64,000 nucleotides of DNA from contig NZ_JARZHF010000008.1 in assembly GCF_029891575.1 (NCBI RefSeq), positions 1-64,000 of the forward strand, written 5' to 3'. The notes beneath the pieces are model-generated. The model saw nothing but the letters and a program-made list of their open reading frames with translations, was not told the origin of the DNA and did no database searches. Source of the DNA: Salipaludibacillus daqingensis. GTDB lineage: Bacteria > Bacillota > Bacilli > Bacillales > Salisediminibacteriaceae. Shown here piece by piece: positions 4,434 to 64,000 of the stretch. The first letter of the stretch is position 1. Every line of letters begins with the position of its first letter. Both the position numbers and the translations under genes were made by a program.

Positions 4434-4943
4434 TTAATGCGTTGTCGCTGCTTCGGATAGCTGGTCTATGTATGCGTAAGCTTCTTCCATGTCTTGGTTT
4501 GTATAGTTTTGTTTTGCTTTAAATTTAAAAACTTTCGTCTCTACTTCTTCACGTGGTAAATCGTCAAAATATAAAATAGTCGATACCAATTCAAGAAATT
4601 TAGCACTTTGCTCATTCATTTGAAGCAACATTTCACTCACATCTGGAAAATCCAACGACATCATTGCTAAAAAGGCGTCTCCTTTTTCCGATAGCTCGTA
4701 ACGATACTGCTGGTAGCCGGCTTTCTTTTCTTTCACTTCCGAGACAAATTGGAGCTGGCACACTTCCTCCATTCGAAGCGAAAGCTCCTCGGAGTAAGGT
4801 CCGAACATGTGCAACTGATATTTTTCATAAAAAGGCACGTTCATCTTTTGCGCAATATAGACCATCTTCTGCAATTTTTTCCGGCCAACAATCTCACCAG
4901 TTTGTTTAAATAATGCCAGTAATTTGGCATGTTCGTTAAGCAT
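4434..4943 (-). CDS. ywgA: YwgA family protein
   Basis: A 169-residue protein matching the YwgA family. The N-terminal part (KLLALFKQTGEIVGRKKLQK, then FGPYSEEL) has the look of a winged-helix-like module as seen in YwgA and in some antitoxin/phage relatives; the C-terminal half is helical. The function in B. subtilis is unknown. The start at 4943 lies 3 bases downstream of the ywfO stop, so the two are very probably translated from one message and may be functionally linked. Confidence 0.82.
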   Translation of the reverse strand: MLNEHAKLLALFKQTGEIVGRKKLQKMVYIAQKMNVPFYEKYQLHMFGPYSEELSLRMEEVCQLQFVSEVKEKKAGYQQYRYELSEKGDAFLAMMSLDFPDVSEMLLQMNEQSAKFLELVSTILYFDDLPREEVETKVFKFKAKQNYTNQDMEEAYAYIDQLSEAATTH

Positions 4944-58820: not shown

Positions 58821-58917
58821 AGGGAAAGCTTAGATTCCGTGCCATTAAACTGTCAAAAATAGAGATGAACGATTATACTTTACGTATACTACGGCCAGAA
58901 TGGAAGGAGCTACTATT

Positions 58918-59280
58918 GTGAAACGTTTTAAACGAGAGGAACCACTAAGATATGAGTTTGCCAAACCATTAGATGTTAGTTTTTACATTAGTCGACTTCG
59001 TGGCGAACAATCGCAATCTTCCCGTGGCAAAGGTGTTATCCGTAACATTAGTCCTGGAGGTCTGCGCTTGGAATCAACTCTGGATCTTCCTAAAGACAAA
59101 GAAGTAGAAATTACGTTTGAATTAGATATTGCAGGCCATACGATCCAACCTATTGGCTGCATAGTTTGGAAAGAGAAGAGTTACGATCGGACAATGTATG
59201 GCGTCGACTTTGTTTCAAACGAATATGAGCAAAATATTATCCGCGCATTGAAAGATTATCCGAAAAATAGAAACAGTTAG
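58918..59280 (+). CDS. PilZ domain protein (possible c-di-GMP receptor)
   Basis: A 120-residue single-domain protein. The second PilZ motif N-x-S-x-x-G is present as NISPGG (43-48). The first motif, normally R-x-x-x-R, appears as R-x4-R (Arg6 to Arg11), one residue longer. Binding of c-di-GMP is therefore likely but not certain. The start is a GTG at 58918, eight bases after AAGGAG. A c-di-GMP riboswitch lies 4 kb away, so the second messenger is used in this strain. Confidence 0.85.
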   Translation: MKRFKREEPLRYEFAKPLDVSFYISRLRGEQSQSSRGKGVIRNISPGGLRLESTLDLPKDKEVEITFELDIAGHTIQPIGCIVWKEKSYDRTMYGVDFVSNEYEQNIIRALKDYPKNRNS

Positions 59281-60939: not shown

Positions 60940-62589
60940 TTATAGTTTAAACGAGCTTTTTAATTCAACAATTCTGTTGAACACAAGTAGGTCTTCTGTT
61001 GAATGTTTAGGATCAACGTTGAAATAACCGTGTCTGAAAAATTGGAACTTGTCATTTGCTTTCGCTTCAGCCATGTTCGGTTCTACAAACCCTTTTGTTA
61101 TTTCTAATGAGTTTGGATTCACAAAATCGAGGAAGTCATTTCCTTCTCGTTCATCTTCAATTAAGGAATTGTATAATCGAAACTCCGCTGCTACAGCGTT
61201 TGTTGCTTCAACAAAATGAAGTGTTCCTTTCACTTTACGTCCTGTGAACCCACTTCCGCTTTTTGTTTCTGGGTCGTAGGTGCAATGAAGCTCTACAACA
61301 TTTCCTTCTTCGTCTTTGATGACGTCATTACATTTGATGAAATACGCATGTTTTAAGCGAACTTCATTTCCTGGGAAGAGTCGGAAGTACTTCTTCGGTG
61401 GATCTTCCATGAAATCATTTCTTTCAATATAGATTTCACGAGAAAATGGAATTTTTCGCATGCCCATCTCTGGGTTCTCTGGATTTACATCCGCATCTAG
61501 CCACTCCACTTCCCCTTCTGGATAATTTGTGATGACAACTTTAATTGGGTCTAATACAGACATTGTACGTGGGGCTTTTAACTTTAAATCCTCACGGATA
61601 AAGTGTTCGAGCATTCGCACATCTACAAGATTATCGGCTTTCGCAACACCAATTTCGCGGCAAAACGTTTTTATCGATTCTGCAGTGAAACCGCGGCGAC
61701 GGAGTCCTGAAATCGTCGGCATGCGAGGGTCGTCCCAACCGTCTACAAGGTTTTCGTCCACAAGCTGCTTTAATTTCCGTTTGCTTAATACGGTATTCGT
61801 TAAATTCAAACGAGCAAATTCAATTTGTCTAGGTGTTGCTTCCACCTCACTATTTTCTACAACCCAGTCGTAAAGTGGGCGCTGATCTTGGAACTCTAAC
61901 GTACAAATCGAATGCGTCACTCCTTCTATGGCATCTTCTAACGGATGGGCAAACGAGTACATAGGATAAATGCACCAAGTGTCTCCAGTATTATGGTGAG
62001 TAGCATGAGAAATACGGTAAATGACCGGATCACGCAAGTTAATGTTTGGTGAGGCCATGTTTATTTTTGCTCGAAGAACTTTTTCTCCATTGGCAAATTC
62101 ACCATTTTTCATTTTTTCAAACAGATCAAGGTTTTCTTCTACAGAACGGCTTCGTGAATCGCTTTCCTTGCCAGGTTCTGTTAACGTTCCACGGTACTCG
62201 CGAATTTCCTCTTGGGACAAGTCTTCTACGTATGCCAACCCTTTTTTAATAAGCAACACAGCTTGGTTGTACATTTCATCAAAATAGTTAGAAGCGAAAT
62301 GCAAATTCGTCCATTCATAACCGAGCCATTCAATATCTTCTTTAATGGAATCAACAAATTCCTGGTCTTCTTTTAATGGATTTGTATCGTCAAAACGAAG
62401 GTTGATTTTCCCGTTAAATTCTTTAGCTAATTCAAAGTTCAATACAATGGATTTTGCATGGCCTATATGTAAATAGCCATTAGGTTCAGGAGGGAAACGT
62501 GTGATAATTTGATCGTGTTTCTCCTTTGCTAAATCTTCTTTCACAATATGTTTAATAAAATTTGTTGTTTCGTTCGTATTTTCAGTCAT
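60940..62589 (-). CDS. glnS: Glutaminyl-tRNA synthetase
   Basis: A 549-residue class I synthetase charging tRNA-Gln directly. HIGH-type motif [21 protein letters not shown]-type [10 protein letters not shown], GlnRS-specific features such as RFDDTNP and the C-terminal anticodon-binding beta-barrels (to the end). No GluRS-like length and no YqeY extension. Most Bacillaceae lack GlnRS and instead form Gln-tRNA by GluRS plus the GatCAB amidotransferase, so this gene is unusual for the group and may have been acquired. AGAAAGGTG precedes the ATG. It lies alone between terminators. Confidence 0.95.
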
Positions 62590-62900
62590 ACAAAATCACC
62601 TTTCTCCCAGCATATTTCTACTATTATTCGTTATATCATAAATAACCAAGGATATCCATGACTCAAGACGAGTTTATTCTTATTATCGGTCATTTCTGAT
62701 TGATCATCCTTTTTTATTTTATTTTTTCCAAGGACTCCACCATTTCTCATTAATAAATACCTAATCATTTATAATTATAAATACCCATTACTTAAGGTTA
62801 TATTGATTGATAATTTATTACTTTTTTATTGAATTTTATCGTGTCACACAATAATCACTTCATTTTATTGATTACTTTATACCTACGTGATAAGTTTGAT

Positions 62901-62990
62901 GAGGTTCATTTCTCGCAAACTCATTGAAAAATGAGGACGCAAAGCTTCAGATCTAACGCCTTTGAATGGTTAAGATGGCTGAGTTGCAAA
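62901..62990 (+). promoter_or_regulatory. Cyclic-di-GMP-I (GEMM) riboswitch aptamer
   Basis: The conserved core is present in order: GCAAACTC, a short hairpin ending in ATGAGG, the hallmark GACGCAAAGC, CTAA, a variable P3 stem, then AAGATGGCTGAGTTGC. These match the GEMM-I consensus around the ligand-binding pocket, and the GCAAACTC / GAGTTGC closing helix can form. Ends are approximate. An intrinsic terminator follows about 85 bases downstream, then the decarboxylase gene. Confidence 0.9.
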
Positions 62991-63073
62991 AAACACTTTG
63001 TTTCGTCTGTACATTTTCATGAGACTCATGGACAAAGCCTAGAATTTGGTCTTATCGACCATTCTGTTTTTTC

Positions 63074-63106
63074 AACATTCCCATCTTTTATGGGGATGTT
63101 TTTTCT
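63074..63106 (+). terminator. Riboswitch expression-platform terminator
   Basis: AACATTCCCAT pairs with ATGGGGATGTT (one T-G) around a 5-base loop, then TTTT. It lies between the c-di-GMP aptamer and the decarboxylase start, so ligand binding probably decides termination or read-through; the alternative stem is not resolved by eye. Confidence 0.85.
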
Positions 63107-63187
63107 ATTAACCCTACTTCCCTTAACTCTACCATATCTTTTCAAAGAACAAATATGAAAGACTATTTAGAAAGTAGGTAAACAAAC

Positions 63188-64000
63188 ATGACAAAAATGA
63201 AAGAAATTCAATCTTTTTTTCCAAGTGAAGACGGGAATCGTGAAAGTCGAGAACACTTCATCGAACTTCTCACGTCTGTTCTAGAAAACATGGATCAGTT
63301 TAAAGATACTCATCAGGTCACCTTAGGACCTTTGAAAGAAAAATCAGCTGGTTTTTATGAAGAATTAACGAACTCCTCGGCAGTTCCACAAAAAGGTGGT
63401 AGTTTTCAAGGAATGATTGATCAGTTAACAGACCTTATGAAAGGTCACCCTTTTCAATCTCGTTATTTTTTAACGAATGTACTACCGATGGCAAGTATCC
63501 CGGGTCTTATTGGTCAGTTCACCGCTTCTTTATTAAACGGAAACAATTTATGGGATGTGTATGGACCTGCTGGAGCTGAAGCCGAGACAAAGGTCATTTC
63601 AATGATGTCCAAAATCGCAGGATATGACCATCAGCAAAGTTGGGGTTACACGACGTGGGGAGGGCAAGGCGCTGTTTTCACTGGACTTAGGTTAGCCATT
63701 GCCAAATATGCCCCTTCCGCTGTGGAAGAGGGGGTTCCTAACAACTTATACGTCTTCTCCTCTGAACAAGCTCATTATAGTTTGCTAAAGTCCGCTGAAG
63801 CAACTGGTATTGGTCGAAATCATGTCATCAAAGTGCGCACGAAACGGGATCACTCCATGGATGAAGATGACTTGCAAAAGAAAATGGAAAAAGTAATTGA
63901 AAAAGGCGGTATTCCGATTTATATCGTGGCAACAACAGGAACGACCGACAATTTTGGAATCGATAATATACAACAAATTTATGCAACGGCGACGCAAACA
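63188..64000 (+). CDS. PLP-dependent group II (aromatic/acidic amino acid) decarboxylase, N-terminal 271 residues
   Basis: Open from the ATG at 63188 to the window end with no stop. Residues 1-271 carry group II decarboxylase features: FLTNVLPMASIPGLIGQF, NLWDVYGPAGAEAETKV and the TTWGGQGAVFTGLRLAIAKY cofactor-binding loop, then VATTGTTDNFGIDN. The family decarboxylates aspartate, glutamate, tyrosine, diaminobutyrate or similar. The catalytic Lys lies past the edge. The site (GTAGGT) before the start is weak. The gene is under the c-di-GMP riboswitch, so its product amine may matter in the biofilm/motility switch. Confidence 0.85.
   Translation, partial: MTKMKEIQSFFPSEDGNRESREHFIELLTSVLENMDQFKDTHQVTLGPLKEKSAGFYEELTNSSAVPQKGGSFQGMIDQLTDLMKGHPFQSRYFLTNVLPMASIPGLIGQFTASLLNGNNLWDVYGPAGAEAETKVISMMSKIAGYDHQQSWGYTTWGGQGAVFTGLRLAIAKYAPSAVEEGVPNNLYVFSSEQAHYSLLKSAEATGIGRNHVIKVRTKRDHSMDEDDLQKKMEKVIEKGGIPIYIVATTGTTDNFGIDNIQQIYATATQT

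Follow-up and report, generated by a model that had tools for sequence, protein, structure and literature searches.

Riboswitches that bind c-di-GMP are known for the control of motility, chemotaxis and surface genes. By layout, the described system nearest to the one reported here is Bc1-mcpE of Bacillus thuringiensis and the Bacillus cereus group, in which, according to the sections of the report that describe the leader, a c-di-GMP-I aptamer and two terminators precede a chemoreceptor (MCP) gene (PMC11218506). The same sections state that Bc1 binds c-di-GMP but that neither in vivo nor in transcription assays did expression respond to the ligand (PMC11218506). Published c-di-GMP-I switches act in both directions: in the parts of PMC6366702 that deal with them, the functional switches of Clostridioides difficile are OFF switches and Bc2 is an ON switch. 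The word ‘decarboxylase’ does not occur in the main text of PMC11218506 or in the available text of PMC6366702, and the decarboxylase passages of PMC11477304, PMC13194489, PMC2864571, PMC9495176 and PMC9495366 do not concern a decarboxylase under a c-di-GMP riboswitch; in the accessible passages of the open-licence PMC literature, no report of such a target was found. Phenethylamine is treated as an infochemical in the passages of PMC7142476 devoted to it, which leave c-di-GMP unmentioned. Here we describe a locus at which a c-di-GMP-I riboswitch precedes both a decarboxylase gene and a chemoreceptor gene. Within the open-licence passages covered, the decarboxylase appears to be new as a target and the chemotaxis gene is of a known kind, and together they form an unusual, conserved two-part target.

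The locus lies near the end of a 64-kb stretch of DNA from Salipaludibacillus daqingensis (genome G000), the whole of which we refer to as the window. Across the window, the sole match at the gathering threshold (cmscan, Rfam 15) is the c-di-GMP-I (GEMM-I) riboswitch model RF01051 at 62904–62991 on the forward strand, which covers the full model (1–87) with 68.5 bits (E = 2.7e-11; gathering cut-off, 35 bits). A first-pass annotation had assigned the element to this class, and the covariance search bears out the assignment over the full length of the model. In the alignment, the conserved core formed by GCAAAC and GACGCAAAGC (the latter at 62936–62945) is intact, a GAAA tetraloop of the GNRA type caps the first hairpin, and the last hairpin contains one non-standard pair, flagged on both sides. 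Judged from its sequence, the element appears to be a real and well-formed member of a known riboswitch class. The c-di-GMP-I-GGC model RF03167 shares the Rfam clan; in clan competition three homologous leaders (G026, G412 and G241) score best there, while also passing RF01051, whereas the window aptamer scores best as RF01051.

Upstream of the aptamer, a promoter-like element (TTGATT-17-TAAGTT, with TG one base ahead of the −10 hexamer) can be read at 62868–62896 on the forward strand, with transcription predicted to start at about 62903. Its TTGATYAC start is present in the seven genus members that have the operon. A consensus promoter scan of the leader did not report this element, of which TAAGTT matches three of the six positions of the −10 consensus, and gave a different, weak site at 62658–62686. 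Downstream, on the same strand, two intrinsic terminators stand in tandem between the aptamer and the start codon, in the position of an expression platform within a 5′ leader: T1 (stem 63040–63066, a stem–loop of −7.8 kcal/mol followed by UUUUUUC) and T2 (stem 63074–63100, an 11-pair stem of −12.7 kcal/mol followed by UUUUC). The first-pass annotation was right that a terminator is present and had counted one where there are two; these are the two terminator-like sites in 62590–63250, against a mean of 0.2 (s.d. 0.5) in shuffled sequences.

The first gene of the operon encodes a PLP-dependent group II amino acid decarboxylase, as had been proposed (PF00282, 98.8 bits against a cut-off of 27); it begins at 63188 on the forward strand and is cut by the window end at 64000. 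The contig was examined from C8:60000 to C8:75000, past the window end, and the whole gene spans C8:63188–64840 and encodes 550 amino acids. The complete gene had been expected to name the substrate, and in this respect it did not deliver: six NCBIfam equivalog models match (RhbB, PanP, histidine, tyrosine, MfnA and GAD), none reaches its cut-off and the best score is 90.9 of 900 bits, so that the enzyme belongs to a subfamily that the library does not name. RhbB (DABA), PanP (aspartate), the tyrosine decarboxylases and GAD share with it the PF00282 family and the PLP lysine, histidine and aspartate, but the window enzyme falls far below all six matching equivalog cut-offs. Residues K337, H196 and D285, which, on the basis of general knowledge and alignment to PDB relatives, we take to be the PLP lysine, the stacking histidine and the aspartate at the pyridine nitrogen, are invariant in all 32 aligned homologues (32 of the 35 then available; three close loci of genus g50, L065–L067, were left out). 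The enzyme therefore looks intact, and would represent an unnamed subfamily. Among solved structures, the top profile match is 8zpi (131.5 bits), an entry titled diaminobutyrate-2-oxoglutarate transaminase, followed by GAD and others. Reading a substrate from these PDB relatives was abandoned, as the set is mixed (DABA, GAD, tyrosine and aromatic decarboxylases) and indicates no single substrate.

Beyond the window, the decarboxylase gene overlaps by 7 nt with an MCP gene on the same strand (C8:64834–66519), the start of which is preceded by GAGGTGT and the product of which carries HAMP (PF00672, 54.4 bits) and MCPsignal (PF00015, 143.9 bits) domains. The decarboxylase, put forward in the first-pass annotation as an unfamiliar target, is indeed the first gene but is not the only one, and because the operon runs on into the MCP gene, part of the target belongs to the classical chemotaxis class. 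The upstream neighbour (60940–62589), a class I tRNA synthetase (E/Q type), is divergent and the gene downstream of the MCP gene is converging, so that the leader and its two genes seem to stand alone as a transcription unit. No Pfam model scores above cut-off for the extracellular part of the MCP, and a PDB profile search with it returned artificial repeat proteins only and no natural relative. For the homologue from Lysinibacillus sp. FJAT-14745 (L027), the extracellular part was modelled from the single sequence (mean pLDDT 70); the top structural matches of this model are ligand-binding domains of chemoreceptors, the best of them, a modest one, being that of Htc10 (E = 4.7e-4, TM 0.47). 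The extracellular domain of the window MCP is probably Cache-like. A c-di-GMP-I aptamer, two intrinsic terminators and a downstream chemoreceptor gene are common to the window operon and Bc1-mcpE; as far as the latter is described in the sections cited above, its MCP gene directly follows the riboswitch, whereas here the decarboxylase comes first, and its terminators are 28 bp apart, as against 7 in the window leader.

Matches to RF01051 (7, every one above cut-off), GGDEF (20 above cut-off and 2 more below) and MCP-signal (19, in 18 genes) indicate that c-di-GMP signalling and chemotaxis genes exist in the window genome. None of its other six riboswitches has an MCP gene within 10 kb, by position. 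Four are followed by genes for a FapA/Jag_N protein, a ComEA-like helix-hairpin-helix protein, a cell-wall amidase and a LuxR-type regulator; at the remaining two, an oppositely oriented gene separates the riboswitch from a nearby sortase or glycosyl hydrolase family 4 gene. At the weakest match (L016, C1:772474–772565, reverse strand, 47 bits), a gene that is GntR-like by eye follows on the opposite strand. Within the window itself, about 4 kb 5′ of the operon riboswitch, a PilZ-domain protein (PF07238, 42.5 bits; 58900–59280, forward strand) is encoded, a possible c-di-GMP receptor.

The census of decarboxylase loci covered a family sample (35 genomes, 9 with a decarboxylase match, 10 loci), an order sample (397 genomes, 28 with a match, 24 of these new) and a class sample (398 genomes, 15 with a match, 9 new), which together hold 43 loci, from 42 genomes. 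The total of 45 includes two further records with names, Lysinibacillus sp. FJAT-14745 and the Niallia taxi NBC_Nia megaplasmid (L103). At 22 of the 45, a c-di-GMP-I riboswitch in the same orientation stands directly upstream of the decarboxylase gene or leads its cluster. Among the 43 genome loci there are 21 such leaders, against 0.062 expected by chance (calculated from 158 riboswitches in the 42 genomes and 3.2 kb of upstream sequence on the same strand); as these loci are related to one another, the 21 occurrences do not count as independent. In a tree of all 45 enzymes, built by a quick method and with several long branches, the state of the riboswitch changes at least 8 times, with gain and loss not distinguishable. 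The 23 loci without the riboswitch are L027, L060, L062–L068, L071, L073, L074, L077–L083, L115, L116, L120 and L121. At one of these, L081, a riboswitch (4629–4731, reverse strand) lies in the same orientation as the decarboxylase gene, about 240 nt beyond its stop codon, and the stretch examined shows no clear gene for it further downstream. Elsewhere, three c-di-GMP-I riboswitches occur within 15 kb around a decarboxylase–MCP pair (L114, G449 C1:3290537–3305084). A plasmid filed as Klebsiella grimontii (L104, CP079755.1 10339–25796) carries a 51% decarboxylase homologue near a Spo0E-family gene; the DNA seems to be of Bacillus type, as if the assembly were mislabelled or mixed, and the record was left out of the census.

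An MCP gene lies within about 3 kb of the decarboxylase at 40 of the 45 loci (21 of 22 with the riboswitch and 19 of 23 without), whereas an MCP within a few genes would be expected by chance in a few per cent of loci, by our estimate from the 18 MCP genes of the window genome. The five loci with no MCP in this range are L059, L071, L073, L082 and L083; the contig of L073 stops 133 bp beyond the gene. The MCP gene follows the decarboxylase on the same strand in 26 loci, with overlapping reading frames in 19 of them, precedes it in six (L069, L070, L072, L074, L076 and L122), is divergent in four (L077, L080, L081 and L084) and convergent in four (L068, L078, L079 and L120). The partners also differ in kind between lineages: some have an extracellular domain, others are a short form of about 390 amino acids and one has a PAS domain. 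That the enzyme stays constant while its partners vary argues for a functional association. As 19 of the 23 riboswitch-free loci keep an MCP, control by c-di-GMP is not essential to the pair. Where the riboswitch is present, gene order differs among clusters and the riboswitch leads throughout: it stands ahead of decarboxylase and MCP (L010 and others), MCP and decarboxylase (L122), transporter, decarboxylase and MCP (L075), or a four-gene cluster that encodes a 122-amino-acid protein, a 236-amino-acid protein, an MCP of about 390 amino acids and the decarboxylase (L069, L070, L072 and L076).

Within the genus, the riboswitch precedes the decarboxylase in all seven members that have the enzyme. 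The eighth member, G027, has no decarboxylase match, no window-like MCP after any of its 8 RF01051 matches (stretches of 6.5–7 kb) and, as best homologue of the partner MCP, a protein that is 31% identical; in this one case, the decarboxylase and its riboswitch-led MCP appear to be missing as a unit. The same genome has a c-di-GMP-I riboswitch followed by a CheX-like gene (L130; PF13690; 4164–4622, reverse strand) and a response regulator that is CheY-like by eye. Two other members, G028 and G025, carry GACCCAAAGC where the window aptamer has GACGCAAAGC. The aptamers with this core, at L056 (6784–6868, reverse strand) and L057 (2160–2244, forward strand), score 58 and 48 bits, and the decarboxylase–MCP pair is intact; the altered core is possibly the mark of a decaying switch.

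Neighbouring genes in operons other than that of the window point towards the uptake and conversion of hydrophobic amino acids. An SNF-family (PF00209) transporter gene lies ahead of the enzyme in L075, with a riboswitch, and in L068 and L079, without one. The L075 transporter, encoded by the first gene of a riboswitch-led operon, is a near full-length homologue (residues 2–444 of 451, E = 1.7e-107) of the hydrophobic amino acid:sodium symporter MhsT (PDB 4us3), the substrates of which include, in the passages of PMC9350835 that treat them, Trp, Tyr, Phe, Val, Leu and Ile. By analogy with this one homologous operon, the substrate of the decarboxylase is probably a hydrophobic or aromatic L-amino acid; the window operon has no such transporter gene, and MhsT is a pointer to substrate class only. 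Three riboswitch-led loci (L117, L118 and L119) have, about 250–540 bp 3′ of the MCP gene and on the same strand, a gene for a MatE-family exporter, which possibly exports the product. The 122- and 236-amino-acid proteins of the four-gene clusters are without significant family matches in the one or two members tested, the latter in Pfam and NCBIfam alike; inspection by eye suggested STAS and GNAT as respective labels, at the level of a guess. A place for the 236-amino-acid protein in an amine pathway found no support, its best PDB matches, one of them arylalkylamine N-acetyltransferase-like, being non-significant (E = 0.27–0.55). The L059 cluster contains a FabH-type ketosynthase.

Control by termination is likely, given a layout in which promoter, aptamer, two terminators and gene succeed one another. 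In the 3′ part of the aptamer, a candidate antiterminator, AAGAUGG (62972–62978, forward strand), complements CCAUCUU at 63081–63087 in the 5′ arm and loop of T2; the helix is predicted at −7.3 kcal/mol, and in a partial transcript with the 5′ arm of T2 made and the 3′ arm not, the predicted MFE structure pairs the two segments. With this pairing, ligand binding would favour termination. The window pairing did not surpass that of shuffled leaders, with p = 0.27 (T1) and 0.06 (T2) in a helix test and p = 0.60 (T1) and 0.43 (T2) in an accessibility test. Candidate antiterminators in other leaders, such as UAAUAAUGGG with CCCAUUAUUA (G030, G024 and G029) and GGGUUGCAG with UUGCAGCCC (G077), convinced by eye and were rejected as not clear of the shuffles. 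None of 17 terminators clearly stood out from 1,000 shuffled aptamers each (lowest p = 0.03), and the accessibility test with 120 shuffles gave p values of 0.14 to 0.66; only in G077 and G352 did the leader’s own aptamer yield the lowest value (0 of 15 other aptamers as low). When the aptamer was taken out of play, the 5′ arm became more open in 15 of the 17 terminators (16 leaders), which is the OFF sense, and G012b and G295 showed the reverse. This trend is not beyond the shuffled controls, and foreign aptamers do about as well.

Our main reading, to which we assign a probability of roughly 70%, is that the c-di-GMP-I riboswitch and its two tandem terminators control transcription of an operon of overlapping decarboxylase and MCP genes. 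In this reading, c-di-GMP would change read-through into the operon, the enzyme and one particular chemoreceptor would be produced jointly in a single c-di-GMP state, and the receptor would deal with the chemistry of the enzyme, be it substrate, product or a derivative. As a regulatory unit, the locus is well supported by what can be read in the DNA, namely the aptamer, the terminators, the gene layout, the catalytic residues and the conserved grouping; what it means biochemically is inferred. Because the shuffled controls were not beaten, we claim no direction. Our preference, without statistical support, leans towards an OFF switch in which c-di-GMP promotes termination. An ON switch, in which c-di-GMP would prevent termination and enzyme and receptor would be made in the sessile state, is compatible with the main reading and seems to us somewhat the less probable of the two directions: Bc1 turned on a reporter in Bacillus subtilis (PMC11218506) and Bc2 is an ON switch (PMC6366702), as the relevant passages of these reports have it, but 15 of the 17 terminators respond in the OFF sense, albeit within the shuffled controls. 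Another possibility is that regulation is in truth aimed at the chemoreceptor, as in Bc1-mcpE, and that the decarboxylase is an ordinary metabolic gene that shares the transcript by chance. The published sections on the Bacillus cereus group provide a precedent, a c-di-GMP-I riboswitch before an MCP gene with the same two-terminator layout (PMC11218506 and PMC6366702). We nevertheless consider it unlikely, because the decarboxylase stays near an MCP at 40 of 45 loci despite changing gene order and MCP types, because a riboswitch also leads the L059 decarboxylase cluster, where no MCP was found nearby, and because in L084 it leads a decarboxylase that is divergent from the MCP cluster.

The absence of an in vivo response of Bc1, as reported in the sections cited, is a serious warning for the window switch. 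The riboswitch might bind c-di-GMP and yet hardly regulate, or be in the course of being lost, with the operon effectively constitutive or otherwise controlled; Bc1, with no response in transcription assays either, the altered cores of G028 and G025 and the 23 of 45 loci without a riboswitch fit such a view. The window aptamer itself, at 68.5 bits with an intact conserved core, and the retention of the riboswitch before all seven decarboxylases of the genus speak against it, and we give it little credence. Glutamate and tyrosine decarboxylases have roles in acid or redox stress or in nitrogen use, and both are among the relatives of the window enzyme in profile searches. The enzyme might accordingly serve such a function, with decarboxylation consuming protons and c-di-GMP merely reporting a surface-attached state in which pH falls. 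Acid-resistance decarboxylases, however, usually adjoin an amino acid/amine antiporter gene, and none was recognised by eye directly beside the enzyme in the clusters viewed; the usual neighbour is an MCP, with an SNF-family sodium symporter in three clusters and a MatE exporter in three, and we regard a stress function as improbable.

To return to the main reading, a riboswitch-controlled operon of enzyme and receptor, the recurrence of the combination in related bacteria suggests joint control of an enzyme and a sensor by the signal that decides between swimming and settling. Because decarboxylase, MCP and riboswitch form a conserved grouping, a link between an amine product and the motile/sessile switch is a reasonable proposal. 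A more specific and speculative version, which we hold at low confidence, is that the decarboxylase yields a diffusible amine or amide and that the co-transcribed chemoreceptor detects this compound or its precursor, under c-di-GMP control; in other lineages, the same module would take in neighbours such as an importer of hydrophobic amino acids, a MatE exporter or additional enzymes. If this were true, a second messenger would set both the sending and the detection of a chemotactic cue as cells choose to swim or settle. The grouping of decarboxylase and chemoreceptor under one switch recurs in several genera of Bacilli, which makes the operon a candidate, open to test, for direct control of a metabolic cue by a second messenger. 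The partner enzyme’s substrates, amines and amides may help to identify the ligand of an orphan chemoreceptor, and the grouping in turn may give a clue to what an unnamed decarboxylase subfamily does.
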